Assembly: GCA_037176705.1 (NCBI GenBank)
Contig: CM073895.1
Span: forward strand, 104,172,551 to 104,236,550
Length of the DNA stretch: 64,000 nucleotides
From: Molossus alvarezi
Taxonomy: Eukaryota; Chordata; Mammalia; Chiroptera; Molossidae
Direction: 5' to 3'
This document shows positions 545-63,488 of this stretch, piece by piece. The position numbers and the translations under genes were made by a program. The notes below the pieces were generated by a model, which ran no database searches, was not told where the DNA came from, and saw only the letters and a list, made by a program, of their open reading frames with translations. Numbering within the stretch: position 1 is the first letter of the stretch; each line of letters starts with the position of its first letter.

Positions 545-783
545 ATTTTTTTTAATTAATTAATTTTTGTTACAGATGTTTCTCCTTTTTCCCCCACTGT
601 TTCCCCCCTTCCCCTTCCTCCCCGCCCTGTCCCCAGTTTGTTGTCCATGTCCACTGTTCATGCATACATGCATATAAGTTCTGTGGTTTATCTCTCCCCA
701 CCATCCCCTCTTCTAGGGATTGTCAGTCTGTACCCCACCTCCACGTCTCTGGGACTACCCCATTCCTCAGACTGTTATGTTCA

Positions 784-4610: not shown

Positions 4611-4655
4611 TTTTGTTTAGTGTGGTTCTATTTTTCTTCCCATTTCTACTGCTAA

Positions 4656-5545
4656 TTACAGCAGTCCTTTTAACATTTCTTGCAGTGCTGGTTTGGTGCT
4701 AATGTATTCCCTCAGCCTTTTTTTCTCTGGGAAGCTCTTTATTTGACCTTCTATTTTGAATGATAGCCTTGCTGGGTAGAGTAGTCTTGGATTCAGATCC
4801 TTGTTTTTCATGACCTTGATTACTTCATGCCATTCCCTTCTGGCCTGTAATGTTTCTTGTGAGAAGTCAGCTGAGAGCCTTATGGGGTTTCCTTCGTAGG
4901 TAACCTGTTGCTTATCTCTTGCTGCTTTTTGGATTCTCCCTTGTCTTTAATTTTTGGCAGTTTGATTACTATGTGTCTTGGTGTGGGCCTGTTTGGGTTC
5001 TTCTTACTTGGGGCTCTCTCTGCTTCTTGAACTTGAATGCCTTCTTCCTTCACCACATTAGGAAAGTTTTCTGTCACTATTTCTTCAAATATATTCTCTA
5101 ACCCTTGCTCATTTTCTTCTTCGGGGACTCCTATTATGCGAATATTATTACGTTTCCAGTTGTCCCACAGTTCTCTTAAGCTGTCTTCTTGTTTTTTAAT
5201 CGTTTTTTTCCTTTTGGTTTTCTGATTGGTTGATTTTTCTACCCTGTCTTCTAATTCACTCATCCGGTCCTCAGCTTCCTCTACTCTGCTTTTTAGACCT
5301 TCCAATGTGTTTTTCATTTCTGATATGTCGTTTTTAATGTCCAACTGGTTGATTTTCAACATTTCTATGTCTTTACTCATGGTGCTTATGTCCTTACACA
5401 TGCTGTTGAGCTTCCTCGAGATCATGGCTCTGAATTCTTGTTCTGTTAACTTGCTTAACTGCACCTCATTTATCTCATCTTTGGTAGAGGTCTCTTGTTC
5501 TTTCATTTGGCTTCTGTTTCTGTTTTTCACCATTTTGGCTATCAC
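4656..5545 (-). pseudogene. L1 ORF1p-like RNA-binding protein, frameshifted
   Basis: ORF1p is the L1 trimeric RNA-binding chaperone that coats L1 RNA in the cytoplasm. The frame opens at 5545 with MIAKMVKNRNRS and reads 221 residues. Residues about 40-110 form a heptad-rich coiled coil (MSKDIEMLKINQL, ending in SELEDRVEKS). After about residue 125 comes the start of the RNA-recognition domain (NNIRIIGVPEEE). The frame breaks near 4880. L1-like sequence continues to a stop at 4656-4658, giving an ancestral length of about 296 codons. The C-terminal half, needed for RNA binding, is therefore lost from the main frame. Confidence 0.85.
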
Positions 5546-5674
5546 AGTGGACTTTGGAGTCTGGAAAATTTTTCCTGTGGTGTTGGTGTTCTGCTGTTTG
5601 TGCCTCCCTCTCCTGGGTTTGGATGAGGCATGGAGGACCCACTTTAACCACCACTGTCAAGTCTTAACTTTCCT

Positions 5675-5679
<5 letters not shown>

Positions 5680-5705
<26 letters not shown>
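5680..5705. repeat. 26-base T run (poly-A on the L1 sense strand)
   Basis: An uninterrupted T26 lies in the L1 5' UTR just upstream of ORF1. The sister elements at 51-63 kb have only a T6/A6 run at the same place, so this tract expanded after, or within, this lineage. Confidence 0.9.
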
Positions 5706-6443
5706 GCCTGTAGGCTATTAGTAGAGGTCACCTGAAGAACCTTGGTTTCTGAGTTGCCTGAAAAACTCCCTCAGGTGTTCAGTGTAAGAGGATTTCCCGA
5801 GGGTGAGGCAGATGCTGGTTGTTAATGGGCCTCAATTAGCATTTCAATGGCCACCAGGTGGGGTTGAATCTCCCAGGGAGGGGCCGCTGCCTCTCCCCAG
5901 GGCCCTGGGATGGAGTAAGATGACCATAGTCCTGAGTGGCTGCACTCAGCAAAATCTCTGAGCACCCTCCAAATCCCGAGTGTACCCACACAGTTCCAGT
6001 GCAGTCTGCCTTCCCTCTCCCGGAGCCCAAGGTGAGTGGTTGCTGCCAATTTAGCCTCTGTCCAGACTGCGTCGTGGAGCCACCTGGACTTTTAACCCAA
6101 GGGCGCTGCTCCCAGCAAAGGGCAGCCGAGTCTGCGGCACCAGCTGAGGGTGTAGCACTCAGCCAAGTTCGCAGGACTTAGCCATGGTCACAGCTGAGGC
6201 GGCAGCAGCTTCCCGCCGAGTCCCCTGGTCCCAGCCCAGGCCGCTGCGGACTGTGGGCTCCTGGCCCCCTCTCGCGTCCTCGCAAGCCTACCATGATTGC
6301 ATCGGTGTCCCTGGTTATGTGGTCCTCCAGGCTGCCTTTCAGTTGCTCCTTCCTGATGATTTGTCTTTATTTTCATTGTAAATCCAGTTTGGTCCTGGGA
6401 GATGGTCTCTGTAGCTCCATTCACTCCGCCATTTTTTTCTCTC

Positions 6444-10832: not shown

Positions 10833-11715
10833 GGGACATCTCCAAGGCAACACCCCCAACTAAGTTCTCCATCAAGCCCTCCTCTCAAAGCCTGCTCACC
10901 ACTGCCTTCCAAGGGACATCTCCAAGGCAACACCCCCAACTAAGTTCTCCATCAAGCCCTCCTCTCAAAGCCTGCTCACCACTGCCTTCCAAGGGACATC
11001 TCCAAGGCAACACCCCCAAGCTAAGTTCCCCATCGAGCCCTCCTCTCAAAGCCTGCTCACCACTGCCTTCCAAGGGACATCTCCAAGGCAACACCCCCAA
11101 GCTAAGTTCCCCATCGAGCCCTCCTCTCAAAGCCTGCTCACCACTGCCTTCCAAGGGACATCTCCAAGGCAACACCCCCAAGCTAAGTTCCCCATCGAGC
11201 CCTCCTCTCAAAGCCTGCTCACCACTGCCTTCCAAGGGACATCTCCAAGGCAACACCCCCAAGCTAAGTTCCCCATCGAGCCCTCCTCTCAAAGCCTGCT
11301 CACCACTGCCTTCCAAGGGACATCTCCAAGGCAACACCCCCAAGCTAAGTTCCCCATCGAGCCCTCCTCTCAAAGCCTGCTCACCACTGCCTTCCAAGGG
11401 ACATCTCCAAGGCAACACCCCCAAGCTAAGTTCTCCATCGAGCCCTCCTCTCAAAGCCTGCTCACCACTGCCTTCCAAGGGACATCTCCAAGGCAACACC
11501 CCCAAGCTAAGTTCCCCATCGAGCCCTCCTCTCAAAGCCTGCTCACCACTGCCTTCCAAGGGACATCTCCAAGGCAACACCCCCAAGCTAAGTTCCCCAT
11601 CGAGCCCTCCTCTCAAAGCCTGCTCACCACTGCCTTCCAAGGGACATCTCCAAGGCAACACCCCCAAGCTAAGTTCCCCATCGAGCCCTCCTCTCAAAGC
11701 CTGCTCACCACTGCC
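10833..11715. repeat. 81-bp minisatellite, about 10.9 copies
   Basis: The unit begins 'gggacatctccaaggcaac' and restarts at 10833, 10913, 10993, 11074, 11155, 11236, 11317, 11398, 11479, 11560 and 11641. The first two units are 80 bp (one G missing after 'cccccaa') and share 'ttctccatcaag'. The later units are 81 bp and mostly identical ('ttccccatcgag'). The unit at 11398 has the hybrid 'ttctccatcgag'. The last unit stops at about 11715. Because 81 is a multiple of three, a 270-codon frame (minus strand, 10885-11697) stays open with a 27-residue repeat. This is a by-product of the period, with no other sign of a protein. Confidence 0.97.
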
Positions 11716-12535
11716 TCTGCACCCCAGTCAAGGCCAGTGCTGCTCTTCCGCTGTGCAGAGCGAAGCTTGGAGTCACCTCGGACTATTCTCTTCCACTTCC
11801 AGCTGGGCAGGCCCTGCTTCACGATGTCCCTGGAATACATTCCTAGCCACCTCCACAGCCACAGGCTGGTCCCAGCACCACCGTCTCTCACCAGGATGAC
11901 CTGGCACCTCCTGCTGGCCCCCCAACTCCATCTTTGTCCCTCAATTTCTCCTCATAACACAGAAACCCAAATGGTCCTTCAGAAACAGCTTGGATTACGT
12001 CCCTCCTCTGCTACCAAGCACCCAGTGGTTCTACTACTCAGTCAGGGCAGAAACCAGAGACTTCCTCTGCTAAGGGCGCCAGGATTTGTTTTAATCAGGT
12101 GTGGTAAGACAGACAGACACGGACATGACTGTCATGAAGGAAGCAGAGTTTGTACTTACAGGTTCCCTGGAAACAGGAAGCATGCCACACAGGGCCGCGT
12201 GGGCAGCCCGGGCCCGTCGGGAGGCACGAGCCTCCGCCGTGGCTTCTGCGAGCAGGTGCTGGCAAGCTTGGAACGCAGGTTCAGGTTGGCTGGTGTGAAT
12301 GATGTCGGCGGCTCTGGAGTGTAGGGCGGTCCCTGGTCCCTGGCAGCGGCCCTGGGCTGACTGGGCTGGGGAACCGTGGTGGGTGAGCGCCCAGCAGAGA
12401 AGGCAGTGGGCATAGGCTCTGCACCGGTTGGTTTGCATCATTATCTCTAAGAATTAGTTGATCCTGGGAGAAGCAGTCCCCCCAGGGTCAGCAAGATGTC
12501 CAAGCATAAAAAACGCAGACTAACAAGGACGGGGC
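11716..12535. other. Single-copy DNA, nothing recognised
   Basis: The longest frame (11737-12324, plus, 195 codons) starts inside low-complexity text next to the minisatellite. It has no domain, signal peptide or splice context and is treated as chance. Confidence 0.45.
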
Positions 12536-23977: not shown

Positions 23978-25212
23978 CCCAGCTGCATGCAAAAAAAAAT
24001 GAAACTGGACCATCAACTTACACCATACACAAGAATAAACTCAAAATGGATAAAAGACTTAAATGTGACCTGTGAATCCATAAAAATCCTAGAAGAAAAT
24101 GTAGGCAACAAAATGTCAGACATTATACGCAGCAGAATTTTCACAGATACATCACCTAAGGCAACAGAAACAAAGGAGAAAAGGAACACATGGGACTACA
24201 TCAAACTAAAAAGCTTCTGCACGGCAAAAAAACCACCAAAATGGAAAGGCAACCCACTCTATGAGAGAGCATCATTGCCAATGATACATCAGATAATGGG
24301 TTAATTTCCAATATATAGAGAGTACTCATACAGCTCAACAAAAGGAAGACAAAGAAACCAATTGAAAAATGGCCAAGGGAACTAAATAGACACCTCTCCA
24401 AACAGGACATACAAATGGCTAGGAAACATATGAAGAAATGCTCACCATCACAAATCATCAGAGAGATGCAAATTAAAACAACAATGAGGTATAACCTCAC
24501 ACCTGTCAGAATGGCCGCCATCAACAAATCATCAAACAACAAGTGTTGGTGAGGGTGTGGAGAAAAGTACACTGCTGGTGGGAATGCAGACTGGTGCAGC
24601 CACTATGGAAAACACTATAGTGTTACCTCAAAAAATTAAAAATTGAACTGCCATTTGACCCAGGGATCCCACTTCTAGGAATATATCCTAAGAAGCCTGA
24701 AACACCAATCAGAAAGAATATATGTACCCCCATGTTCAGAGGAGCACTATTTATAATACCTAAGATCTGGAAACAGCCCAAATATCCATCAGTAGATGAA
24801 TAGATAAAAAATCTGTGGTACATATACACAATGGAGTACTATGCAGCTGTAAGAAAGAAAGATCTCTTATCTTTTGAGATGACATGGAGGGACCTGGAAA
24901 GTATTATCCTAAGCGAAACAAGCCAAGCAGAGAAAGACAAATATTACACGATCTCACTTATTTGTGGAATATAATGAACATAACAGTCTGAGGAATGGGG
25001 TAGTCCCAGAGATGTGGAAGTGGGGTACAGACTGACAGTCCCCAGAAGAGGGGGTGAGGGGGAGAAATAAATCAAAGAACTTATATGCATGTACATGAAC
25101 AGTGGACATGGACAACAAAGCTGGGTACAGGGCGGGGAGGGAGGGGGACAGGGTATCAGTGGGGGAAAAGGAGAAATATCTGTAGCAAAAATAAATTAAT
25201 TAATTTTTTAAA
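23978..25212 (+). mobile_element. 5'-truncated L1, plus strand
   Basis: The copy starts within ORF2 at 'cagctgcatgcaaaaaa'. It runs through the ORF2 C-terminus ([20 protein letters not shown], then the cysteine motif region) to the stop at about 24974, the 3' UTR ('ggggaaaaggagaaatatctg') and an A/T-rich tail ending near 25220. Stops interrupt the frame. No target-site duplication was found, and the tail abuts another L1 directly. Confidence 0.88.
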
Positions 25213-27339
25213 AAAAGAAAACATGACCCATATCTATGCTGTCTACAAGAGACCCACCTCAGAAAAAAAGACTCACAGACTGAAAGTGAAAGGATGGAAA
25301 AAACATTCCTCGCAAATGGAAACACAACAAAAAACAGGTGTAGCAATATGCATATCTGACAAAGTAGACTTCAAAATGAAGGTCATAACAAGAGATAGAG
25401 AAGGTCTCTATATAATACTAAAAGGATCTATCAACAAGAAAATATAACCCTTGTAAACATATATGCACCCAATACAGGAGCACCTAAATATATATATTTT
25501 TAAAAACCTCTTAATGGACTTTAAGGAGGAGATCGACAACAACACAGTCATAGTAAGGGCACTTTAACACACCATTGACATCACTGGATAGACCTTCCAG
25601 ACCAAAAATCAACAAAGAAACAGCAGCCTTTAGTGACACACTAGATCAGATGGATTTAACTGGTATTTACAGAATATTTCATCCCCACAAGGAGGAATAT
25701 ACATTTTTCTCAAGTGCACATGAAACATTCCCAAAGATAGACCACATGTTATGACACAAAACAAGTCTATACAAATTCAACAAGATTGATGTCATAACAA
25801 GCATCTTCTCAGAACATAGTGGAATAAAATGGGAAATCAACTACAGTAAAAAAAAAAAAAAAACAGTCAAATACATTGAAGTTAAATAGCATTTTATTAA
25901 ACAGTGAATGGGTTACCAAAGAGATCAAGCAAGAAATTAAAAAAAAAAAAAATCTTCCTGGAAACAAATGAAAATGAACACACAACAACCCAAAACCTAC
26001 AGGACACAGCAAAAGCAGTCCTGAGAAGGAAATTCATAGCATTACAAGCCTACCTCAAGAAACAAGAAAAAGCTCTAATAAACTATCTAACCTTAAACTA
26101 ATAGAATTAGAAAGAGAACAGCAAGAAAAGCCCCGAGGAAATGGAAGAAAGGAAATAATAAAGATCAGACTGGAAGTAAATGGCATAGAGATGAAAAAAA
26201 AATACAAAACATTAATAAGTTCAAGAGCTGGTTCTTTGAAAGATAAAGATTGATAAACCCTTAGCCTGATTCATCTAGAAACAACAAGAAATGACTGAAA
26301 TAAACAAAATCAGAAATAAAAGAAGAGAAGTAACAACTGACATAACAGAAATACAAAGAATTGTAAGAAAATACTATGAGCAACTATATTCAAAAGAAAC
26401 TGGACAACCTGGACAAAATGGACAAATTCCTAAAGATATACAATCTTCCAAAACTGAATCAGGAAGAATAAAAAAACATGAATAGGCCAATAACAACTAA
26501 TCAAATTAAGGCAGTAAGCAAAAAACTTCCAGCAAATAAAGTCCTGGGCCAGATGGATTCACAGGAGAGTTTTACCAAACATTCAAGCAACTAACACCCA
26601 TCCTCCTCAAACAATTCTGAAAAATTCAAGAGGACAGAACACTTCTAAGCTCTTTTTATGAGGCCAGCATTATCCTAATTCCAAAACCAGATAAAGACAC
26701 TACAAAGAAAGAAAACTACAGGCCAGTATCCCTAATAAACACAGATGCTAAAATTCTCAACAAACATTAGCAAATCAGATCCAGCAATACATTAAAGAGA
26801 TCATACCCCATGACCAAGTGGGATTTATTCCCGTGATGCAAGTCTGGTACAATCATTGCAAATTCATAAATGTGATACACCACATAACACAAAATGAAGG
26901 GTAAGATAACATGATCATATCAATAGATGCAGAAAAAGCATTTGACAAAATCCAGCACCCATTTTTTATAAAAACTCTTAGCAAAGTGGGAATAGAGGGA
27001 TCATACCTCAACATAATAAAGGCCATATATGACCAACCTACAGCCAGTATTATACTCAACAGGCAAAAACTAAAAGTTTTACCCTTAAGAAGAGTAACAA
27101 GACAAGAATGTCTGCTTTCGGCACTCTTATTTAACAAAGTACTGGAAGTTCTAGCCACAGTGATCAGAAAGGGCAAAAGAAAAAGCGCATCCAAATTGGA
27201 AAGAAGAAGTAAAATTATCATTATTTGCACATGACATGATACTGTACAAAGAAAAGCCTAAAGGCCTCAAGAAACTTCTATATTTAATAAATTAATTTGG
27301 CAAAGTAGCAGGATACAAAATCAACATTCAGAAATCAAT

Positions 27340-27573
27340 GGCACTTTTTCATATATTTAATTGAATTTTTAGAGAGAGAAGAAGGGAGAGAGACATAGAA
27401 ACATCGATGTAAGAGAGCAACACTGATAGGCTGCCTCCTGCACACCCTCTGCTGGGGATCAAGCCCGTAACTCTGGCATGTGCTCGACTGGGAATTGAAC
27501 CAGGACTCTCAGTCCATGGGACTATGCTCAGTCCACTCAGCCACACCGACTGGGCTTGACGGCACTTTCATAC
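27340..27573 (-). mobile_element. VES-type SINE inside the old L1
   Basis: The reversed VES body (about 27353-27558) has 'tttttagagagagaagaagggagagag', 'catcgatgtaagagagcaacactgataggctgcctcctgca' and 'tcagccacaccgactgggc'. Imperfect direct repeats 'ggcacttttt'/'ggcactttca' flank it, followed by 'cata' words. L1 RT-domain text resumes right after it. Confidence 0.86.
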
Positions 27574-27938
27574 ACCAATACTGAACTCTCAGAAAGAGAA
27601 CCTAAAAAAATTAAATAAAATCCCATTTACCATTGAAACAAACAAACAAAAAACTAAGATACCCAGGAATAAACTTAACCAAGGATGTAAAAGACCTGTT
27701 TTCAGAAAACTATAGGACATTGAAAAAAACAATAGACAAAGATATAAACAAGGGGAAGAATATACTGTGCTCATGGATTGGAAGAATTAACATCATTAAA
27801 ATTCCATACTATCCAAAGCAATCTATAGATTCAACACAATCCCTATTAAAAAAAACCAACAGCATACTTCATAGAACTAGCATAAACACTCCAAATATTT
27901 ATATGTAGCCAAAAAATAACTCAAATAGCCACAGTAAT

Positions 27939-30039
27939 ATTTTTAAATTAAATTTATTTATTTTTGTTACAGATGTTTCTCCTTTTTCCCCCATTGACAC
28001 CGTCTTCTCCCTCCCTCCCCACCCTGTCCCCAGCTTTGTTGTTCATGTCTATTGGTTATGCATACATGCATATAAATTCTGTGGTTTATCTCTCCCCCCC
28101 ACATCCTCTTACAAGGATTGTCAGTCTGTACCCTACTTTCACGTCTCTGCAACTACCCTGTTCTTCAGACTGTTATGTTGATTATATTCCACAAATAAGT
28201 GAGATTATATGATACTTGTCTTTCTCTGCTTGGCTTGTTTTGCTAACGATAATACTTTCTAGGTCCCTCCATGTTGTCTCAAAGGATAAGAGCTCTTTCT
28301 TTTTTACAGCTGCATAATACTCCATTGTGTATATGTACCACAGATTTTTTTTATCTATTCATCTACTGATGGATATTTGGGCTGTTTCCAGATCTTAGCT
28401 ATTGTAAATAGTGCTCCTCTGAACATGGGGGTACATATATTCTTTCTGATTGGTGTTTCAGGCTTCTTAGGGTATATTCCTAGAAGTGGGATCACTGGGT
28501 CAAATGGCAATTCTATTTTTAATTTTTTGAGGTAACACCATACTGTTTCCAATAGTGGCTTCACCAGTCTGCATTCGCACCAGCAGTGTACTAGAGTCCC
28601 CTTTTCTCCACACTCTTGCCAGCACCTGTTGTCTGATGATTTGTTGATGGTGGCCATTCTGACAGGTGTGAGGTGATACCTCATTGTTGTTTTAATTTGC
28701 ATCTCTCTGATGATTAGTGATGTTGAGAATTTCTTCCTATGTTCTTAGTCATTTGTATATCCTGTTTGGAGAGGTGTTTATTTAGTTCTTCTGCCCATTT
28801 TTTCAATTGGGTCCTTTGTCTTCCTTTTGTTGAGCTGTATGAGCACTCTATATATATTGGAAATTAACCCCTTATCTGATATATCATTGACAATTATGCT
28901 CTTCCATACACTGGGTTCCCTTTCCATTTTGATGGTTGTCTCTTTTGCTGTGCAGAAGCTTTTCAGTTTGATGTGGTTCCATATGTTCATTTTTTTCTTT
29001 GTTTCTGTTGCCTTAGGTGATGTATCAGTGAAAATTCTGCTGCATATGATGTCTAAAATTTTGTTGCCTACTTTTTCTTCTAGGATTTTTATGGATTCAT
29101 GGGTCACATATAAGTCTTTTATCCATTTTGAGTTTATTCTTGTGTATGGTGTACGTTGATGGTCTAGTTTCATTTTCTTACATGTAGCTGTCCAATTTGT
29201 CCAGTTCCATGTATTAAAGAGGCTGTCTTTACTCCATTGTATGCTCTTGCCATCTTTGTCAAATATTAATTGAACATAATGTTCTGGGTCCATTTCTGGG
29301 TTCTCTGTTCTATTCCATTGATCTATGTGCCTGTTCTTGTGCCAGTACCAGGCTGTTTTGATTACAGTAACTTTGTAGTATAACCTGATATCCGGTCCTG
29401 TGATCCCACCTACTTTGTTTTTGTTTTTCAAGATTGCTGTGGCTATTCGGGGTCTTTTTTTTATTCCATACAAACTTTGGAAGTATTTGTTCTAGTTCTA
29501 TGATGTCATTGGTATTTTGATGGGGATTGCTTTGAATCTATAGATTGCTTTGTTTAGTATGGACCTTTTAATGATGTTAATTCTTCCAATCCATGAACAA
29601 GGTATGTGCTTCCACTTTTTTATATCTTCCTCTATTTCTTTTTGGAATGTCCTGTAGTTTTCTGTGAATAGGTCCTTTATTTCTTTGGTTAAGTTTATTC
29701 CTAGGTATCTTAATTTTTTTTTGCTGCGATGGTAAATGGGATTGTTTTTTGTTTTTTTGTTTTTTTTAGTTTCTCTTTCTGTGGCTTCATTATTGGTGTA
29801 TAAGAATGCCATCAATGTCTTGATGTTAATTTTGTATCCTGCTACTTTGCCAAATTCATTTATTAAGTCTAGTAGATTTTTTATGGAATCATTGGGGTTT
29901 TGTATGTATAATATCTTGTCATCTGCAAATAATGACAGTTTCACTTTCTTTCCAATTTGGATACCTTTTGTTTTTTCTTCATATCTGATTGCTGTGCCAA
30001 AGACTCCTGTAGTATGTTAAATAAGTACTGTGGCGAAAG
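27939..30039 (-). mobile_element. 5'-truncated L1 nested in the old L1
   Basis: A 2.1-kb minus-strand L1 starts at its 3' end near 27939 ('aaatttatttatttttgttacagatgtttctcc') and is truncated in the RT region near 30035. The host L1 words 'agccacagtaat' (27927-27938) and 'agccacagcagt' (30040-30051) flank it as an imperfect target-site duplication. Confidence 0.9.
28223..29944 (-). pseudogene. L1 ORF2 C-terminal half in the nested L1
   Basis: The segment 29498-29944 keeps the catalytic KLSLFADD motif and GYKIN. The 28778-29473 segment covers the post-RT region ([23 protein letters not shown]). The 28355-28702 segment keeps the cysteine motif [14 protein letters not shown]. Frameshifts separate them, and the 5' half is absent. 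Confidence 0.85.
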
Positions 30040-31485
30040 AGCCACAGCAGTCTTGAGAAAGAAGTACAAAGTTGGAGAGATCACAATACCAGATACCAGG
30101 CTATACTACAAAGCCACTGTAATCAAAATAACCTGGTCTGACACAAAAACAGGTATATAGACTGATGGAACAGAACAGAGACCCCAGAAATCAACCCAAG
30201 CCATTAAGCTCGATTAATATTTGACAAAGGAGTCAAGAATCTACAATAAAGCAAAGACAATCTCTTCAGCAAATGATGTTGGAAAAATTAGACAGGTACA
30301 TGCAAAAATATGAAACTAGACCACCAACTTACACCATCCACAAGAATAAACTCAAAATGAATATAAGACTTAAATGTAAGTCACGAAACCATAAATATCC
30401 TAGAAGTAAACATAGACAGTAAAATCTCAAACATCTCACATAGCAGAATTTTTGCTGATATATCTCCTTGGGCAAGAGAAACAAAGAAAAATAAATAAAT
30501 AAATGGGCCTACATCAAACTAAAAGGCTTCAGCACAGCAAAAGAAACCATCGACAAAATGAAAAGGGAACCCTCTCTCTGGGAGAATATATTTGCCAACG
30601 ATACATCAGATAAAGGGTTAAGATCCAAAATATACAAAGGACTCATACAACTCAACAACAACAACAACAAAGCCAAACAATACAATTTAAAAATGGACAA
30701 AACACCTGAATAGACACTTCTCCAAAGAGGACATACAGATGGCCAAGAGACATATGAAAAAATGTTCAGTCACTAATCATCAGAAATGAAAATTGAAACT
30801 ACAGTGAAATATCACCTCACACCTGCCAGAATCAACAAACAACCAGAGCGGGCGAGGGTGTGGAGAAGAGGGAACCCTAGTACACTGCTGGTGGGAATGC
30901 AGACTGGTGCAGCCACTGTGAAAAACAGTGGTGTTTCCTCAAAAAATTAAAAACGAAACTACCACTTGACCCAGCAATCCCACTTCTGGGAATAGATCCT
31001 AAGAAGCCTGAAACACCACTCAAAAAGAATATATGCACCCCTATGTTCATAGCAGCACTATTTTCAATCACTAAGATCTGAAAACAGCCCAAGGGTCCAT
31101 CAATAGCTGAGTGGATAAGAAAGCTGTGGTACATACACAGCTGGAATGGAATACTATGCAGCTGTATGAAAGAAAGATCTCTTATCCTTTGAGATGACAT
31201 GAGGGACCTAGAGAGTATTATGCTAAATGAAATAAGCCAGTCAGAGAAAGACAAAAATCACATGAACTCAGTTGTTTGTGGAATCTAATGAACAAAATAA
31301 ATTGACCAACAAAATACATCCAGAGGCAAGAAACAGACTGACAGATCTTGGGGGTGGGGGAACAACAAGAAGAGATAAACCAAAGAACTTGTATAGCCCA
31401 TGGACACAGACAATAGTGTGGTGAAGGCCTGGTGGGGGACAGGGACTGGGTGGAGAGGTAAAGAGGGGGGAATGGGGGACATCTA

Positions 31486-31922
31486 TAACACTGTCTATAT
31501 ATATAACTATTGACTATATATATAACTATTAACTATATATATATACCTATTGACATATATAACTATTAACTATATATATACCTATTGACATATATAACTA
31601 TTAACTATATGTATACCTATTGACATATATAACTATTAACTATATATATACCTATTGACATATATAACTATTAACTATATATATACCCATTGACATATAT
31701 AACTATTAACTATATATATATACCTATTGACATATATAACTATTAACTATATATATACCCATTGACATATATAACTATTAACTATATATATACCTATTGA
31801 CATATATAACTATTAACTATATATACACCTATTGACATATACAACTATTAACTATATATATACCTATTGACATATATAACTATTAACTATATATATACCT
31901 ATTGACATATATAACTATTAAC

Positions 31923-31935
<13 letters not shown>
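31486..31935. repeat. 35-bp AT-rich minisatellite, about 12-13 copies
   Basis: The unit 'tgacatatataactattaac' + 'tatatatatacctat' restarts at 31551, 31586, 31621, 31656, 31691, 31728, 31763, 31798, 31833, 31868 and 31903. All steps are 35 bp except one of 37. Two more diverged copies precede it from about 31495. It starts directly at the old L1 3' end, where a tail would be, and ends in a (TA)n(CA)n stretch. Confidence 0.95.
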
Positions 31936-51369: not shown

Positions 51370-51603
51370 CACTTGTTGTTGTTGTTACACATGTTTCTGC
51401 TTTATTTCCCCATTGACACCCTCCTCCACATCCCCCCACCCCGTCCCTGGTTTTGTTGTCCATGTCCATTGGTTATGTGTACATGCATATAAGTTCTGTG
51501 GTTTATCTTCTCCCTCCCCACCACCGTCTCTTCCGAGGGTTGTCAGTCTGTACCCTATTTCCACGTCTCTGGGTCTACCCTGTTCCTCAGACTGTTATGT
51601 TTA

Positions 51604-54600
51604 TTATATTCTGCAAATAAGTGAGATCATGTGGTAATTGTCTTTGTCTGCTTGGCTTGTTTCACTTAGAATAATAATTCCCAGGTCTTGCCATGTCGTC
51701 TCAAGTGATAAGAGATCTTTCTTTCTTACAGCTGCATAGTACTCCATTGTGTACATGTACCACAGCTTTTTGATCCATTGTCTAATGATGGACACTTGAG
51801 CTTCCAGATCTTAGCTATTGTAAATAGTGCTGCTATGAACATGGGGGTACATATATTCTTTCTGATTGGTGTTTCAAGCTTCTTAGGGTATATTCCTAGA
51901 AGTGGAATCACTGGGTCAAATGGAAGTTTAATTTTTAACTTTCTAACACCATATTGTTTTCCATAGTGGCTGCACCAGTCTGCATTCCCACCAGCAGTCC
52001 ACCAGAGTCCCCTTTTCTCCACACCCTCGCCAACACTTGTTGTTTGATGATTTGTTGATGGCGGCCATTCTGACAGGTGTGAAGTGATACCTCATTGTTG
52101 TTTTAATTTGCATTTCTCTGATGATTAGTGATGATGAGCATTTCTTCATATGTCTCTTAGCCATTTGTATGTCCTATTTGGAGAGGTGTCTATTTAGTTC
52201 CTCTACCCATTTTGTAATTGGGTTCTTTGTCTTCCTTTTGTGGAGTTGTATGAGCACTCTCTATATATTGGAAATTAACCCCTTATCAGATATATCATTG
52301 GCAATTATGCTCTCCCATACAGTGGGTAGCCTTTCCATTTTGATGATTGTATCTTTCGCTGTGCAGAAGTTTTTTAGTTTAATGTAGTCCCATGTGTTCA
52401 TTTTCTCCTTTGTTTCTGTTGCCTTAGGTGATGTATCAGTGAAAATTCTGTTGCGTATGATGTATGATGTCCGAAATATTGCTACCTGTATTTTCTTCTT
52501 GGATTTTTATGGATTCATAGGTCACATTTAAGTCTTTTATCCATTTTGAGTTATTTTTGTGTAGGGTGTAAGTTGATGGTCTAGTTTTATTTTTTGCATG
52601 TAGCTGTCCAATTTTCCCAACACCATTTGTTAAAGAGGCTGTGTTTACTCCATTGTATGCTCTTCCCTCCTTTGTCAAATATTAATTGAGCATAATGTCT
52701 TGGGTCCATTTCTGGGTTCTCTGTTCTGTTCCACAGGTCTATATGCCTGTTCTTGTGCCAATACCAGGCTGTTTTAATTACGGTAGCTTTGTAGTAAACC
52801 TGATATCCAGTATTGTGATCCCACCTACTTTGTCCTTTTGCAAGATTGCTGGGGCTATTCGGGATCTTTTTCGGTTCCATATAAACTTTTGAAGTCTTTG
52901 TTCTAGTTCTGTGAAATATGTCATTGGTATTTTGATGGAGATTGCATTGAATCTTTCGATTGCTTTGTGTAACATGGACATTTTAATGATGTTAATTCTT
53001 CCCATCCATGAACAAGGTATGTGCTTCCACTTTTTTATGTTTTCCTCTACTTCTTTTTTCAATGTCCTGTAGTTTTCTACGAATAGGTCCTTTACTTCTT
53101 TGGTTAAGTTTGGTCCTAGGTATCTTAACTTTTTTGGCCGTGATGGTAAATGGGATTCTTTTTTCAGTTTCTCTTTCTGTGTGTGCATCATTGGTGTATA
53201 AGAATGTCATCGATGTCTTGATGTTAATTTTGTATTCTGCCACTTTGCCAAATGCATTTATTATGTATAGCAGATTTTTTATGGAGTCTTTAGGGTTGTC
53301 AATGTGTAATACCATGTCATCTGTGAATAATGACAGTTTCACTTTCTCCTTTCCAATTTGGATCCCATTTATTTTTTCTTCATTTCTGATTGCTGTGGCT
53401 AAGACTTCCAGTACTATGTTAAATAGGAGTGGTGAATGTGGGCATCCCTGTGCAGTTACTTTTCTTAAGGGAAATGTTTTTAGTTTTTGCCCATTGAGTA
53501 TGATGTTGGCTGTAGGTCTTTCATATATGGCCTTTATTATGTCAAAATATGATCCCTCTATTCCCAGATTGCTGAGCATTTTTATCAGAAATGGATGCTG
53601 GATTTTGTTGAATGCTTTTTCAGCATCTATTGATATGATCATGTGGTTTTTATTCTTCATTTTGTTTATGTGTGGTATCACATTTATTGATTTGCAAATA
53701 TTGTACCAGCCTTACATCCCTGAGATGAATCCCACTTGGTTATGGTGACTAATTTTTTTGATGTATTGCTGGATCCGATTTGCTAGTATTGTGTTCAGGA
53801 TTTTGGCATTTCTGTTTATCAGGAATATTGATCTATAGTTTTCTTTCTTTGTAGTGTCTTTTTCTGGTTTTGGAATTATAATTATGCTGGCTCATAAAAT
53901 GAGTTTGGAAGTCTTCCTTCTTGAATTTTTAAAAATAGTTTGAGGAGAATGGGTGTTAGATCTTCATTGAATGTTTGGTAAAACTCACCGGTGAAGCCAT
54001 CCGGGCCTGAGCTTTTGTTTCCCGCAAGAGGCTTCATTACCTCTTCAATTTCCTTAGTGGTTATTGGTCTGTTCAAATTTTTTATCTCTTCGCGGTCCAT
54101 TTTTGGGAGACTATGTATTTCTAGAAGTTTGTCCATTTTGCTTAGATTGTCGAATTTGTTGCCATACAATTGTTCATAGTAGTTGTTAATGATCCTGTGT
54201 ATTTCTGTGGTGTCAGTTGTTACTTCTCCTCTTTCATTTCTGATTTTGTGTATTTGGGATCTCTCTCTTTGTTTCTTGGTGAGTCTAGCTAAGGGTCTAG
54301 CAATCTTGTTTATTTTTCGAACCAGCAGCTCTTTGTTTCACTGACCCTTTGCATTTTTTTTTGGTCTCTATGTCTTTTATTTCTGCCCTGTCTACTATTT
54401 CCTTCCTACTACTTGCTCTAGGGTTTTCTTTTTGTTTGCTTTCTAGTTCTTTAAGTTTTGAGGTTAGATAGTCTATTAGATATTTCTCTTGCTTCTTGAG
54501 GTAGGCCTGTAGTGCTATGAACTTCCCTCTCAGAACTGCTTTTGCTGCATCCCATAGATTTTGTGTTGTTGTGTGTTCATTTCCATAGGTTTTCAGGACA

Positions 54601-55407
54601 TTTTAATTTCTTCCTTGATCTCTCTGTATCCCATTCATTGTTTAATAACATGCTATTTAGCCTCCATGTGTTCCAATGTCTTTGCAGGTTCTTGTTGCAA
54701 TTGAGTTCTAGTTTCATGCCATTGTGACCTGAGAAGATCCTTGATGTGATTTCAGTCTTCTTGAACTTGTAGAGATTTAGTTTGTGTCCTAATATGTGGT
54801 CTAGCTTTGAGAATGTCCCATGTGCACTGGAGAACAATGTGAATTCTGTAGTTTAGGGGTCTAATTCTCTGTAGATATCTATTAAATCCATTTGTCTAGT
54901 GCTTCATTTAGAGTCTCTGTTTCCTGGCTAATTTTTTGTCTACAAGATCTATCCGGTGACGTCAGCGGGGTGTTGAAGTCCCCTGTTATGATTGTATTGC
55001 TATCGATTTCTCTTTGAAGTCCTCCAGAAGATTTTTAATATATGTTGGTACTCCTTAATTGGGTGCATATATGTTTACCAAGGTTATATCTTCCTGTTGG
55101 ATAGATCCTTTCAATATTATGTAGTGGCCTTCTTTGTCTCTAGCTATGACCTTCATTTTGAAATCTATTTGATCAGATATGAGTATTGCTAACTCAGCTT
55201 CTTTCCCCTTTTCATTTGCTTGAAAGATTTTTTCCATCTCTTCACTTTCAACCTATGTGAGTCTTTTGTTGTGAGGTGGGTCTCTTGTAAACAACATATA
55301 GATGAGTCATGCTTTCTGATCCAATCAGCTATTCTGTGTCTTTTTATGGGGGCATTCAACCCATTTACATTTAAGGTGATTATTGATCTGTACTTATTTA
55401 TTGCCAT
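51604..55407 (-). pseudogene. L1 ORF2p-like gene, broken (left copy)
   Basis: It starts MAINKYRSIITLNVNG (55407). The endonuclease is in pieces. The RT finger/palm segment 52992-53681 has [14 protein letters not shown], and the catalytic FADD is changed to FTDD. The C-terminal part (51726-52164) keeps the cysteine motif in decayed form ([14 protein letters not shown]). Frameshifts throughout. Confidence 0.87.
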
Positions 55408-56733
55408 TTTTGTTTAGTGTGGTTTTATTTTTATTCCTATTTCTTTTACTTATTACAGCAGTCCTTTTAACATTTGTCACAGTGCTGGTTTGGTGCTAAT
55501 GAATTTCCTTAGCCTTTTTTTTTTCTGGGAAGCTCTTTATTTGACCTTCTACTTTGAATGATAGCCTTGCTGGATAGAGTAGTCTTGGATTCAGATCCTT
55601 GTTTTTCATGACCTTGATTACATCATGTCATTCCCTTCTGGCCTATAGTGTTTCTGTTAAGAAGTCAGCTGATAGCCTGATGGGGGTTCTTTTGTACATA
55701 ACCATTTGCTTATCTATTGCTGCCTTTATGATTCTTTCTATGTCTTTAATTTTTGGCTTTTTAATTATTATGTGTCTTGGTGTGGGCCTGTTGGGTTCTT
55801 CTTACTTGGGGCTTTCTGTGCTTCTTGAACTTCAATGCCTTCTTCCTTCACAAATTAGGAAAGCTTTATGTCACTATTTCTTCAAATATATTCTCTAACC
55901 TTTGCTCATGTTCTTCTTCGGGGACTTTTATGATGCAAATATTATTACGTTTCCAGGTGTCCCATAATTCTCTTAAGCTGTCTTCCTATTTTTTAATTGT
56001 TTTTTTTTTCCTTTTGGTTTTCTGATTGGTTGATTTTTTCTACACTGTCTTTTAATTCACTGATCCAGTTCTCAGCTTCCTCTGCTCTGTTGTTTAGTCC
56101 TTCCAATGTGTTCTTTATTTCTGCTATGTCATTCTTTATTCCTCCTTGGTGGTTTTTAATTTCCAATTGGTTAATTTTCAATGTGTCTATGTCTTTACTC
56201 ATGGTGCTGATGTCTTTACATATGCTGTTGAGCTTCCTTGAGATCATGGCTCTGAATTCTATCTCTGTTACCTTGCTGAACTGCACCTCATTTATCTCAT
56301 CTTTAGTAGAGGTCTTTTGTTCTTTCATTTGGGATTTGTTTCTTTGTGTCACCATTTTGGCTATCACAGTGGGCTTTGGAGCCTGCCAAATTTTCCCTGT
56401 GAGTGTAAGAATTCTGGTATTTGTGGCTCCCTCTCCGGGGTTTGGATGAGCATGGGAGGACCCACGTTAAACACCACTGTCAAGTCTTACTTTCCTGGGC
56501 AGAGTTGCAAGCCCAGGAAAGGTTCAGTTATCCTCTAATTTTTTGCCTGGAGGCTATTAGTTATGGTTGAAGAGCCTTTGGTTCTCAGTTGAATGAAAAA
56601 CTCCCCAGGTGTTCAGCTGAGGAGCAGACATGGAGGTGTTCAGCATTAGGGGATTTCCCAAGGGTGGGGCAGATGCTGGTTGTTAGTGAGCCTTAATTTG
56701 CATTTCAATGGCCCACAGGGTGGTGTTGAATGT
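53509..56733. repeat. Inverted repeat, left arm (3,225 bp)
   Basis: Every paired position tested between 53882 and 56538 satisfies left + right = 114831, so there is no net length difference. Spot reading near 53740-53880, 54350-54420, 55500 and 56540-56733 is identical. One substitution was found (54793 against 60038). The edges are sharp: mismatch at 53508, and divergence after 56733. Confidence 0.93.
55453..56367 (-). pseudogene. L1 ORF1p-like gene, frameshifted (left copy)
   Basis: It opens with MIAKMVTQRNKSQ and has a coiled-coil region (KDIDTLKINQLEIKN to WISELKDSVEK). The frame ends after 124 residues at a long A run on the sense strand (about 56003-56012). The RNA-binding half follows in other frames to a stop at 55453. 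The same break is in the right-hand copy at 58838, as expected if one copied the other. Confidence 0.85.
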
Positions 56734-57038
56734 CATGTCAAGGAAGAGCCCTGGGAAGGAGTAAGATGGTCACTGTCCTGTGTGGTCGCAACTCAGCAAA
56801 AGCTCTGAACACCCTCCAAATCCTGAGTGTCCCCACACAGTTCCAGTTCAGTCTGCCCTGTTTCTGCCAGAGCCCAAGGTGAGTGGCAGTGACTATTTTA
56901 GCCTCTGTCCCAGCTCTGCGCTGTGGAGCTGCTTGGGACTTTAATCCCAAGGGCACTGCTCACAGCTAAGGCCGCTGCTGTCCAAGGCTCCCAGCCCACC
57001 ACCCTCTCATGCCTCCACAATCCTACCAGGATTGAGTC

Positions 57039-57143
57039 TCCACCACTCTCCACCTTCGCCCCTCACCTACTGAGTCAGAATCCAAATTTCAACAAGATTC
57101 CCAGGTAATTCACATTCATGGCCAAGTTGGAGAAGCACTGGTC
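57039..57143 (+). mobile_element. MER5-like hAT DNA transposon remnant
   Basis: 'acctactgagtcagaatccaaatttcaacaagattcccaggtaattc' and the terminal 'ttggagaagcactgg' match the second half of the non-autonomous MER5A/Charlie family, ending in its terminal inverted repeat. The first half is missing at the L1 junction. Confidence 0.65.
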
Positions 57144-57173
57144 TCTGGTGTGGAGGTTTTTACTAAAGCAATA

Positions 57174-57188
57174 AAAAAGTTTAAATGG
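57174..57188. repeat. Target-site duplication of right L1, left copy (15 bp)
   Basis: 'aaaaagtttaaatgg' recurs exactly at 63474-63488. Confidence 0.95.
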
Positions 57189-57275
57189 ATTCGATTCCAA
57201 AATGGAGGCAGAGTGAATGAAAGCTACACAGACCATTTCCCAGGACCAAACTGGAATTACAACAAAAATAAAGAC

Positions 57276-57724
57276 AAATCTGTAAGAATGAGGTGGAATG
57301 AGGTGGTGCAGGGTCTCCAGAAGTGCAGGTTTATTGGGAACCAGCCTGCCGGACTACCTCTAAGGGGAGAGTAGCAACCAGCTTGTATAGACCAGGGATT
57401 TTTAAACTCAGAGCTGGGGGGGGGAGGGGTCGTTCAGCCGAGGAGATGTGGCCGTCTTTGATTGGTCGGGCCTGGGGTCTCCCTAGTTCTTGATGGGTCG
57501 GGAGCTGGGATCTCCTGAAACTTGTTTTTCTTGTTGAGTGACCATTTGCAGTTTTGGATGGGTTAGGGTGGTTCCGTCATTCGTTCCCCCTGACTGGAGT
57601 GCTGGGTTTTGGATTTCTGGAATGAGAGGCTTAGGGCAAGGTTAAACAATAAGAGTGATAGGTTTTAGTTTCTTGGAATGAGAGGTTTAGGGCAATAATA
57701 TGGAAGTTAAGAGCTAACAAAATC
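57276..57724 (-). mobile_element. Solo LTR of an endogenous retrovirus (class I-like)
   Basis: The LTR is 57281-57719 (439 bp) with TGT...ACA ends and a 5-bp duplication 'aaatc' (57276-57280, 57720-57724). Joining the flanks restores L1 5' UTR sequence. Minus-strand reading gives a CCAAT box (about 57461), a TATA-like 'tttaaaaa' (about 57399-57406) and AATAAA (57330-57335), in the order of U3-R-U5. No internal viral genes remain. It probably formed by recombination between two LTRs of a provirus. Family unassigned. Confidence 0.9.
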
Positions 57725-58097
57725 ATCGGGAAAAAGCAGAAGAAAAGCAGCTTGATAGGACCATATGGCCAGGGACAATGACTCAATCCTGGTAGGATTG
57801 TGGAGGCATGAGAGGGTGGCGGGCTGGGAGCCCTGAACAGCAGCAGCCTTAGCTGTGAGCAGCGCCCTCAGGTTAAACTCCCAAGCAGCTCCTCAGCCCA
57901 TGCTGGGACAGATGCTAAAATAGCCACAGCCACTCACCTTGGATTCCAGCACAGGGAGGGCGGACTGGACGGAAAAGGTGTGGGGACACTCAGGATTTAG
58001 AGGGGGCTCAGAGCTTTTGCTGAGCAGCAGACATGCAGGACAGTGACCATCTTATTCCTTCCATGGGCTCTGGGGAGAGGTGGCCACCTCTTCCTTC

Positions 58098-61000
58098 ACA
58101 TTCAACACCACCCTGTGGGCCATTGAAATGCAAATTAAGGCTCACTAACAACCAGCATCTGCCCCACCCTTGGGAAATCCCCTAATGCTGAACACCTCCA
58201 TGTCTGCTCCTCAGCTGAACACCTGGGGAGTTTTTCATTCAACTGAGAACCAAAGGCTCTTCAACCATAACTAATAGCCTCCAGGCAAAAAATTAGAGGA
58301 TAACTGAACCTTTCCTGGGCTTGCAACTCTGCCCAGGAAAGTAAGACTTGACAGTGGTGTTTAACGTGGGTCCTCCCATGCTCATCCAAACCCCGGAGAG
58401 GGAGCCACAAATACCAGAATTCTTACACTCACAGGGAAAATTTGGCAGGCTCCAAAGCCCACTGTGATAGCCAAAATGGTGACACAAAGAAACAAATCCC
58501 AAATGAAAGAACAAAAGACCTCTACTAAAGATGAGATAAATGAGGTGCAGTTCAGCAAGGTAACAGAGATAGAATTCAGAGCCATGATCTCAAGGAAGCT
58601 CAACAGCATATGTAAAGACATCAGCACCATGAGTAAAGACATAGACACATTGAAAATTAACCAATTGGAAATTAAAAACCACCAAGGAGGAATAAAGAAT
58701 GACATAGCAGAAATAAAGAACACATTGGAAGGACTAAACAACAGAGCAGAGGAAGCTGAGAACTGGATCAGTGAATTAAAAGACAGTGTAGAAAAAATCA
58801 ACCAATCAGAAAACCAAAAGGAAAAAAAAAACAATTAAAAAATAGGAAGACAGCTTAAGAGAATTATGGGACACCTGGAAACGTAATAATATTTGCATCA
58901 TAAAAGTCCCCGAAGAAGAACATGAGCAAAGGTTAGAGAATATATTTGAAGAAATAGTGACATAAAGCTTTCCTAATTTGTGAAGGAAGAAGGCATTGAA
59001 GTTCAAGAAGCACAGAAAGCCCCAAGTAAGAAGAACCCAACAGGCCCACACCAAGACACATAATAATTAAAAAGCCAAAAATTAAAGACATAGAAAGAAT
59101 CATAAAGGCAGCAATAGATAAGCAAATGGTTATGTACAAAAGAACCCCCATCAGGCTATCAGCTGACTTCTTAACAGAAACACTATAGGCCAGAAGGGAA
59201 TGACATGATGTAATCAAGGTCATGAAAAACAAGGATCTGAATCCAAGACTACTCTATCCAGCAAGGCTATCATTCAAAGTAGAAGGTCAAATAAAGAGCT
59301 TCCCAGAAAAAAAAAAGGCTAAGGAAATTCATTAGCACCAAACCAGCACTGTGACAAATGTTAAAAGGACTGCTGTAATAAGTAAAAGAAATAGGAATAA
59401 AAATAAAACCACACTAAACAAAAATGGCAATAAATAAGTACAGATCAATAATCACCTTAAATGTAAATGGGTTGAATGCCCCCATAAAAAGACACAGAAT
59501 AGCTGATTGGATCAGAAAGCATGACTCATCTATATGTTGTTTACAAGAGACCCACCTCACAACAAAAGACTCACATAGGTTGAAAGTGAAGAGATGGAAA
59601 AAATCTTTCAAGCAAATGAAAAGGGGAAAGAAGCTGAGTTAGCAATACTCATATCTGATCAAATAGATTTCAAAATGAAGGTCATAGCTAGAGACAAAGA
59701 AGGCCACTACATAATATTGAAAGGATCTATCCAACAGGAAGATATAACCTTGGTAAACATATATGCACCCAATTAAGGAGTACCAACATATATTAAAAAT
59801 CTTCTGGAGGACTTCAAAGAGAAATCGATAGCAATACAATCATAACAGGGGACTTCAACACCCCGCTGACGTCACCGGATAGATCTTGTAGACAAAAAAT
59901 TAGCCAGGAAACAGAGACTCTAAATGAAGCACTAGACAAATGGATTTAATAGATATCTACAGAGAATTAGACCCCTAAACTACAGAATTCACATTGTTCT
60001 CCAGTGCACATGGGACATTCTCAAAGCTAGACCACATGTTAGGACACAAACTAAATCTCTACAAGTTCAAGAAGACTGAAATCACATCAAGGATCTTCTC
60101 AGGTCACAATGGCATGAAACTAGAACTCAATTGCAACAAGAACCTGCAAAGACATTGGAACACATGGAGGCTAAATAGCATGTTATTAAACAATGAATGG
60201 GATACAGAGAGATCAAGGAAGAAATTAAAATGTCCTGAAAACCTATGGAAATGAACACACAACAACACAAAATCTATGGGATGCAGCAAAAGCAGTTCTG
60301 AGAGGGAAGTTCATAGCACTACAGGCCTACCTCAAGAAGCAAGAGAAATATCTAATAGACTATCTAACCTCAAAACTTAAAGAACTAGAAAGCAAACAAA
60401 AAGAAAACCCTAGAGCAAGTAGTAGGAAGGAAATAGTAGACAGGGCAGAAATAAAAGACATAGAGACCAAAAAAAAATGCAAAGGGTCAGTGAAACAAAG
60501 AGCTGCTGGTTCGAAAAATAAACAAGATTGCTAGACCCTTAGCTAGACTCACCAAGAAACAAAGAGAGAGATCCCAAATACACAAAATCAGAAATGAAAG
60601 AGGAGAAGTAACAACTGACACCACAGAAATACACAGGATCATTAACAACTACTATGAACAATTGTATGGCAACAAATTCGACAATCTAAGCAAAATGGAC
60701 AAACTTCTAGAAATACATAGTCTCCCAAAAATGGACCGCGAAGAGATAAAAAATTTGAACAGACCAATAACCACTAAGGAAATTGAAGAGGTAATGAAGC
60801 CTCTTGCGGGAAACAAAAGCTCAGGCCCGGATGGCTTCACCGGTGAGTTTTACCAAACATTCAATGAAGATCTAACACCCATTCTCCTCAAACTATTTTT
60901 AAAAATTCAAGAAGGAAGACTTCCAAACTCATTTTATGAGCCAGCATAATTATAATTCCAAAACCAGAAAAAGACACTACAAAGAAAGAAAACTATAGAT

Positions 61001-61322
61001 CAATATTCCTGATAAACAGAAATGCCAAAATCCTGAACACAATACTAGCAAATCGGATCCAGCAATACATCAAAAAAATTAGTCACCATAACCAAGTGGG
61101 ATTCATCTCAGGGATGTAAGGCTGGTACAATATTTGCAAATCAATAAATGTGATACCACACATAAACAAAATGAAGAATAAAAACCACATGATCATATCA
61201 ATAGATGCTGAAAAAGCATTCAACAAAATCCAGCATCCATTTCTGATAAAAATGCTCAGCAATCTGGGAATAGAGGGATCATATTTTGACATAATAAAGG
61301 CCATATATGAAAGACCTACAGC
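58098..61322. repeat. Inverted repeat, right arm (3,225 bp)
   Basis: Reverse complement of 53509-56733 with at least one substitution (60038). It covers part of the 5' UTR, all of ORF1 and about half of ORF2. It is separated from the left arm by 1,364 bp. Confidence 0.93.
58464..59378 (+). pseudogene. L1 ORF1p-like gene, frameshifted (right copy)
   Basis: The first 124 residues are identical to those of the left copy and have the same coiled coil and the same frameshift at the A run (about 58819-58828). The C-terminal region continues out of frame to the stop at 59376-59378. Confidence 0.86.
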
Positions 61323-63224
61323 TAACATCATACACAATGGGCAGAAATTCAAAGCATTTCCTTCAAGAACAGGAACAAGACAGGGATGTCCATGTTTGCC
61401 ACTCCTATTTAACATAGTTCTGGAAGTCTTAGCTACAGCAATGAGACATGAAGAAATAAATGGGATCCAAATTGGAAAGGGGGAAGTGAAACTGTCATTA
61501 TTTGCAGATGACATGATATGATACATTGACAACGCTAAAGACTCCATGAAAAATCTACTAGACTTAATAAATAAATTTGGCAAAGTAGCAGGATACAAAA
61601 TTAACGTCAAGAACTCAACGGCATTCTTATACACCAGTGATGAAGTCACAGAAAAAGAAACTAAAAAACAATCCCATTTACCATCTCGGCAAAAAAAATT
61701 AAAAAACCTCGGAACAAACTTAACCAAAGCAGTAAAGGTCCTATTTGCAGAAAACTACAGGACATTGAAAAAAGAAGTAGAGGAATATATAAAAAAGTGG
61801 AAGCACATACCTTGTTCATGGATTGGAAGAATTAACATCATTAAAATATCCATATTACCCAAAGCAATCTATAGATTCAATGCAATCCCCCTCAAAATAC
61901 CAATGACATATTTCACAGAACTAGAACAAATACTTCAAAAGTTCATATGAAACCAGAAAAGACCCAAATAGCCACAGCAATCTTGAAAAAGAAGGACAAA
62001 GTAGGTGGAATCACAGTAGCAGATGTCAGATTATACTACAAAGCCACTGTAATCAAAACAACCTGGTACTGGCACAGGAACAGGCATATACACCAGTGGA
62101 ACAGAACACAGAACACAGAAATGGACCCAAGACATTATGCTCAATTAATATTTGACAAAGGAGGGAAGAGCATACAATGGAGTAAACACAGCCTCTTTTA
62201 CAAATGGTGTTGGGAAAATTGGACAGCTACACGCAAAAAAATGAAACTAGACCATCAACTTACACCATGCACAAAAATAACTCAAAATGGATAAAAGACT
62301 TAAATGTGACCCGTGAATCCATAAAAATCCTAGAAGAACATGTAGGCAACAAAATTTCAACATTATATGCAGCAGAATTTTCACTGATACATCACCCAAG
62401 GCAAAGAAAATAAAGGAAAAAATGAATACATGAGACTACATCAAACTAAAAAGTTTCTGCACAGCAAAAGAAAAAATCACCAAAATGAAAAGCAACCTAG
62501 TTTATGAGAGAGCATAATTGCCAATGATACATCAGATAAGGAGTTAATTTCCAAAATATATAGAGTACTCATAGAGCTCAACAAAAAGAAGACAAATAAC
62601 ACAATTAAAAAATGGGTAGAGGAGCTAAATAGACTCTTCTTCAAACAGGACATACAAATGGCCAAGAGATATATGAAGAAATGCTCAACATCACTAATCA
62701 TCAGAGAGATGCAAATTACAACAACAATGGGGTATCACCTGACACCTGTCAGAATGGCCGCCATCAACAAATCATCAAAGGAGTCTTGGCGAGGGTGTGG
62801 AGAAAAGGGGACTCTAGTACACTGCTGGTGGGAATGCAGACTGGTGCAACCACTATGGAAAACAATATGGTGTTTCCTCAAAATATTAAAAATTGAACTG
62901 CCATTTGACCCAGTGATCCCACTCATAGGAATATACTCTAAGAAGCCTGAAACTCCAATCAGAAAGAATATGTGTACCCCCATGTTCATAGCAGCACTAT
63001 TTACAATAGCTAAGATCTGGAAACTGCCTAAATGTCCATCAGTAGATGAATGGATAAAAAAACTGTGGTATATATACACAATGGAGTATTATGCAGCTTT
63101 AAGAAAGAAAGATCTCTTATCCTTTGAGACGACATGGAGGGACCTGGAAAGTATTATCCTAAGCGAAACAAGCCAAACAGAGAAAGATAAGTATCACATG
63201 ATCTCACTTATTTGTGGAATATAA
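59424..63224 (+). pseudogene. L1 ORF2p-like gene, broken (right copy)
   Basis: It starts MAINKYRSIITLNVNG. Endonuclease pieces lie at 59594-60254. The RT segment 61150-61521 keeps RQGCP and LFADD, with a stop shortly after FADD (near 61520). The C-terminal 188 residues (62658-63224) are open and keep [14 protein letters not shown]. Up to 61322 it matches the left copy almost exactly; beyond that it differs at many residues. Confidence 0.9.
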
Positions 63225-63473
63225 TGAACATAACAGTCTGAGGAATTGGGTAGACCCAGAGACATGGAAGTAGGGTACAGACTGACAACCCTTAGAAGAG
63301 GGAGAGGTGGGGGAAGGGCAGAGATAAACCACAGAACTTATATGCATGTACGCATAACCATGGACACGGACAACAAAGCTCGGTATGGGGTGGAGGTGAT
63401 GGGGAGGAGGGTGTCAATGGGGAAAAAAAAGGAGAAACATCTGTAACAAAAATAAAGTAATTTAAAATTTTTT

Positions 63474-63488
63474 AAAAAGTTTAAATGG
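63474..63488. repeat. Target-site duplication of right L1, right copy (15 bp)
   Basis: Exact copy of 57174-57188, directly after the A/T-rich L1 tail. Confidence 0.95.

Follow-up and report, generated by a model that had tools for sequence, protein, structure and literature searches.

Two L1 elements lying head to head, with their 5' ends facing each other on opposed strands, carry an inverted tract of 3,225 bp that is almost identical between them, whereas the flanking parts of the same elements are 11-17% apart. A sequence-only reading of this DNA had proposed gene conversion, and our results support it: the block is sharp, its flanks are diverged, the trees of block and flanks disagree, and private states are held wholly in common only inside the tract. 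We therefore consider it very likely that the tract arose by a recent, long, noncrossover gene conversion between independently inserted, decayed inverted L1s. The process itself is already known; the locus is a new example of it, unusually clean and long given how far the two repeats have diverged.

Layout of the locus

All coordinates refer to the window, that is the whole stretch of 64,000 nt that was analysed (contig positions 104172551-104236550), which belongs to a genome of 2.50 Gb in 285 contigs. The features on which the analysis rests are the following.

51376..57038, minus strand: L1 element A, delimited by self-alignment, with its 3' end outer and its 5' end inner
57189..63473, plus strand: L1 element B, apparently full length, bounded by a target-site duplication (TSD) and delimited by alignment with A, with the third long L1 of the window (C) and with genome copies; 5' end inner, 3' end outer
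53509..56733, minus strand: arm of the probably converted tract in A, 1 mismatch in 3,225 columns against the reversed 58098-61322
58098..61322, plus strand: arm of the tract in B, from the reverse-complement comparison with the arm in A
56734..58097, no strand: spacer of 1,364 bp between the identical arms, made of the diverged 5' regions of A and B and ~135 bp of other sequence
57174..57188, plus strand: 5' copy of the TSD of B, 15 bp, 15/15 identical to 63474-63488 in direct orientation
63474..63488, plus strand: 3' copy of the TSD of B, 15/15 identical to 57174-57188 in direct orientation
57281..57719, no strand: insertion of ~440 bp nested in the 5' region of B, seen as a BLAST gap between B and the genome copies L069-L076 and C
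52599..52714, minus strand: possible older, short conversion patch in A, suggested by 1 A/B mismatch in 116 bp
62116..62231, plus strand: counterpart of this patch in B, from the A/B alignment

Both A and B have a match to the reverse transcriptase domain RVT_1 and, judged by eye, an A-rich 3' end. The RVT_1 matches, in reading frames 52995-53711 of A and 61120-61518 of B, straddle the outer edge of the tract, which in A extends from the 5' region to within the RT domain of ORF2 and, from its position, should include ORF1. A TSD was found in B only; the best direct match at the ends of A was 7 bp. Judged on the genome copy L069, the 5' end of A is ~140 bp shorter than that of B, and relatives extend beyond A's end. 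Between A and B, positions 57039-57173 hold a short non-L1 sequence that looks like an old, MER5-like DNA transposon. The insertion nested in B is missing in the other copies read there, several of which repeat ~5-6 bp at the join, and our guess is that it is a solo LTR.

Elsewhere, the window holds C (549-6121), a very homogeneous tandem array at 10833-11716 (81-bp unit, 10.9 copies, 99% matches), an AT-rich tandem array at 31495-31932 (35-bp unit, 12.3 copies, with a 177-bp period too) and, at 23980-31394, clustered L1-like fragments in mixed orientations that are 76-81% or 86-89% alike to A, B or C.

A near-identical tract between diverged flanks

By comparing position i with position 114831-i base by base, we found a single mismatch and no indel in the 3,225 columns that pair 53509-56733 with the reverse complement of 58098-61322 (99.97% identity). 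The constant coordinate sum, the lack of a net indel and the one substitution described in the sequence-only reading are thus exact, and the homopolymers that it had compared (T10 near 55516 and T9 near 54352) indeed agree in both arms. The sole difference lies at 54793, with T on A and C on B when read on A's strand. With inverted arms more than 99% identical, the A/B tract has the arm identity that characterizes a palindrome whose arms convert each other repeatedly.

The tract ends abruptly, since the first mismatches beyond it are the immediately adjoining bases, 53508 and 56734. On the outer side, 22 A/B mismatches fall within 53384-53508; on the inner side, a 15-base gap follows 56744. 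On the 3' side, A and B agree at 88.73% of 1,020 columns and 89.04% of 1,095; on the 5' side, where ~85% with indels had been estimated by inspection, they agree at 82.9% of 310. Likewise, the RT difference noticed just outside the tract was recovered, with FTDD at 53327 in A and FADD at 61501 in B. The block is therefore far more alike than its homologous flanks (99.97% versus 82.9-89.0%), as expected of conversion, and this excludes an even divergence along both L1s, which had been named beforehand as the outcome that would speak against conversion.

Run lengths give the same picture. The longest identical A/B run is 1,940 bp inside the tract and 83 bp outside it. Of the other dispersed pairs, mostly L1, that align within the window over 500 bp or more, none has an identical run longer than 85 bp (maxima 21-85 bp), and the only other runs above 85 bp in this set of alignments belong to the 81-bp tandem array. 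At 88.5% identity, the chance of an identical run of 1,940 bases is log10 P ~ -103.

Relatives in the genome and tree incongruence

Searching the genome with 601 of the 3,225 bp of the tract, we found A and B only at 100% among the 40 matches scored of 8,396 candidates; the next match reached 91% and the rest 89-90%. The 1.5-kb pieces of the 3' flanks of A and B each matched only themselves at 100%, and besides a 38-base fragment at 92% their other matches were at most 91% and 90%, respectively (40 scored each). As the genome copies among the matches scored are ~86-91% identical to the pieces used in the searches, both the 601 bp of tract and the two 3' flanks, the identity of A and B comes neither from conservation nor from youth. 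Consistent with this, other copies are diverged over the first 890 bp of the tract as they are in the flank, in one alignment with 28 copies besides A and B and in another with 51. Also, C shows the same 88-90% identity to A and B whether compared over the tract or over the 3' flank, so the tract is no specially conserved stretch. The diverged A/B flanks rule out two young sister insertions.

The main trees had 53 tips, namely A, B and the 51 copies that cover the 1-kb flank 52508-53508 and 890 bp of the tract. In these, A and B were separated by a distance of 0.150 in the flank tree and of 0 in the tract tree. Over 1,059 pairs, with a flank distance above 0.06 required for the comparison, the tract/flank distance ratio had a median of 1.0; it was 0.0 for A/B and 0.67 for the next lowest pair. 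Among the states absent from the 51 other copies, 33 were common to A and B in the tract and none was found in A or B only, whereas the near flank had 5 common to both, 28 in A only and 21 in B only. Private states that are common in the tract and separate in the flank indicate that one old element passed its mutations as a block to the other.

A and B were not neighbours in the tree of the farther flank (51440-52507; smallest joint group 23 of 58 tips), nor in that of the near flank minus 52570-52720 (20 of 53 tips). Given that this could result from midpoint rooting, the trees were re-read with another root, and the result held; in the tract tree, A and B were neighbours after re-rooting. 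The tree of the block thus conflicts with those of the near flank without the patch and of the farther flank, as conversion would have it. When the patch was kept, A and B did pair in the near flank, yet at a distance of 0.15, and they also paired in a 26-tip tree of the whole 3' flank, as expected from the patch being included there. They paired as well in a small tree of the 5' side, for which the patch at 52599-52714 gives no explanation. Because A and B pair in some flank trees, they possibly share some ancestry or an older exchange.

Mechanism and alternative explanations

The exact direct TSD around B indicates that there was no net inversion. A crossover in the tract would have parted the 3' half of B from its 5' end and TSD, so the outer flanks were not exchanged, as is directly visible for B from the TSD copies at both of its ends. 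In the scenario that we propose, A and B would have inserted independently, head to head, perhaps ~30-40 My ago, and then decayed. A break or a stalled fork in one of them could later have been repaired with the other, 1.4 kb off and inverted, as template: a free 3' end would have invaded the other element, ~3.2 kb would have been copied, and the new strand would have rejoined its original flank with no crossover, thereby replacing the 3.2 kb of the acceptor. The route might have been synthesis-dependent strand annealing or an equivalent template switch, which would give the same product. Template switching between the inverted copies had indeed been offered beside conversion in the sequence-only reading; it accounts for the tract equally well and is inseparable from conversion here. 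The inner edge of the tract coincides with the onset of dense mismatches and the 15-base gap, as if synthesis or branch movement had failed at this heterology. A study by Tremblay in 2000, cited in PMC3055243, is said, from its title, to have obtained break-induced conversion between chromosomal LINEs in mouse cells, where likewise an L1 was repaired from another L1, the difference being that the event was induced in cell culture.

Some observations count against conversion. Recombination in yeast is quoted as falling 9-fold when identity is 99% and 50-fold when it is 91-94% (PMC2996329). Such a suppression by mismatches implies that a 3.2-kb event at ~89% identity should be rare, and the short identical runs outside the tract (83 bp at most) weigh in the same direction.

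As near-perfect identity of nearby repeats is a classic warning of an assembly artefact, one arm could have been filled or polished with the sequence of the other. We regard this as improbable, since arms truly ~11% apart over 3.2 kb would presumably not be collapsed normally, the edges lie in the middle of the elements with differing sequence on all four sides, and one difference between the arms exists. Moreover, the contig is 107.6 Mb long, the window contains no N, and the 7.8 kb in total fits one long read. That a crossover between the arms accompanied the conversion and inverted the spacer is more improbable still. The 3.2-kb inverted repeats would suit it as a substrate, but a single inversion would join the 3' half of B to the 5' end of A, and the TSD copies that match directly at both ends of B contradict one net inversion; an even number of inversions would be compatible with them. 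Least credible of all is that one third L1 was the donor for both tracts. L1 copies are abundant, but no third copy exceeded 91% to the 601-bp piece of the 3,225-bp tract among the 40 scored of 8,396 candidates, as expected if conversion involved no third donor, and this explanation would need two events with identical ends.

Comparison with known systems

Long gene conversion between A and B resembles several known cases. In human segmental duplications, where a paralogue is likewise overwritten over kilobases, putative interlocus conversion events have a mean of 6.26 kb (PMC10172114); those are segmental duplications, whereas A and B are L1s that inserted separately and are 11-17% apart in their flanks. 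Conversion between human LTRs and between Alu copies also swaps sequence among transposon copies, as here (PMC4921805, PMC8230782). Alu conversion is reported within about 10 kb, with neighbours favoured (PMC8230782), and LTR conversions have maximum tracts of 14-450 bp with a mean of 99, compared with 3,225 bp for A and B (PMC4921805). The earlier claim that the tract is unusually long holds when it is set beside the LTR events but not when it is set beside the segmental-duplication mean (PMC4921805, PMC10172114). Taking this mean together with the suppression in yeast, the event is more surprising for the divergence that it crossed than for its length.

The palindrome P6 of the human Y chromosome, in which conversion is far commoner than inversion, shares with A/B its inverted arms, tracts of several kilobases and a resolution mostly without inversion (PMC3723533). 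However, its arms are ~100 kb long and repeatedly homogenised, while A/B is a 3.2-kb tract inside old L1s in which recurrence is only hinted at (PMC3723533). X-Y gene conversion at KAL also has a conversion boundary inside an L1, but there the L1 is the edge of a larger exchange, and the X and Y copies derive from one insertion, in contrast to the two separate insertions here (PMC3055243). We found no report of multi-kilobase conversion between two inverted L1s among open-licence titles and abstract openings, which does not prove its absence from the literature.

The locus offers a clean example from nature, its edges defined to the base, of noncrossover conversion that extends over several kilobases between repeats differing by more than 10%, a divergence at which mismatch-dependent rejection should suppress recombination. 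It also indicates that the age of an L1 read from part of the element can mislead, and that old inverted L1 pairs can become near-perfect inverted repeats again, and hence substrates for inversion.

A possible older patch

The conversion explanation could be extended, compatibly with all of the above, to a small evolving palindrome that was homogenised repeatedly, the 3.2-kb event being merely the latest. We hold this recurrence to be possible but doubtful. It starts from the patch at 52599-52714, whose 1 A/B mismatch in 116 bp hints at an older, short conversion. When the flank mismatches were shuffled, the observed minimum was reached at 0.0006-0.0046 over six window sizes, and in a scan allowing for local rate A/B was the second most extreme of 817 pairs. 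Furthermore, 52570-52720 alone groups A with B (support 0.884), and the near flank without it does not. However, a pair on different contigs scores above A/B in the same rate-aware scan, and the patch holds only 3 of the 8 shared private sites, or 2 of 5 with more copies. Also, A and C have an identical run of 85 bp in the same flank (52120-52204 in A, 1306-1390 in C), which shows that such runs arise without a patch. We consider it less likely than not that these two independent insertions form a nascent palindrome with repeated exchange, in which a short early patch preceded the overwriting of 3.2 kb at a divergence above 10%. If so, inverted L1 pairs could rejuvenate into near-perfect inverted repeats, and for pairs of this kind both the apparent age and the capacity to provoke inversions would be reset.

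Age and direction of copying

For dating, we took neutral substitution to proceed at 2.0-2.5e-9 per site per year. At this rate, 1 difference in 3,225 bp would date the event to ~62-78 thousand years ago (Poisson range 1.6-432 thousand), and the conversion was probably recent, about 10^3-10^5 years old. Half of the A-B flank distance (0.1555 in the 26-tip tree) gives an insertion age of ~31-39 My. At position 54793, 35 other copies, counted with the four A/B rows left out, have C in 33 cases, T in one and A in one; the T of A, where 33 of 35 copies have C, fits a mutation after the conversion.

As for the direction of copying, the two elements have terminal branches of similar length on the 3' side (0.079 for A, 0.072 for B). 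Rare states shared with the nearest relative of the tract piece (L003/L069) favour neither element clearly: in the near flank L003 has 2 in common with A and 3 with B, and on the 5' side L069 has 3 in common with A and 1 with B. All 9 of the 9 relatives compared on the 5' side lie nearer to A than to B, and this lower divergence of A is no more than a weak hint on which element was the donor.
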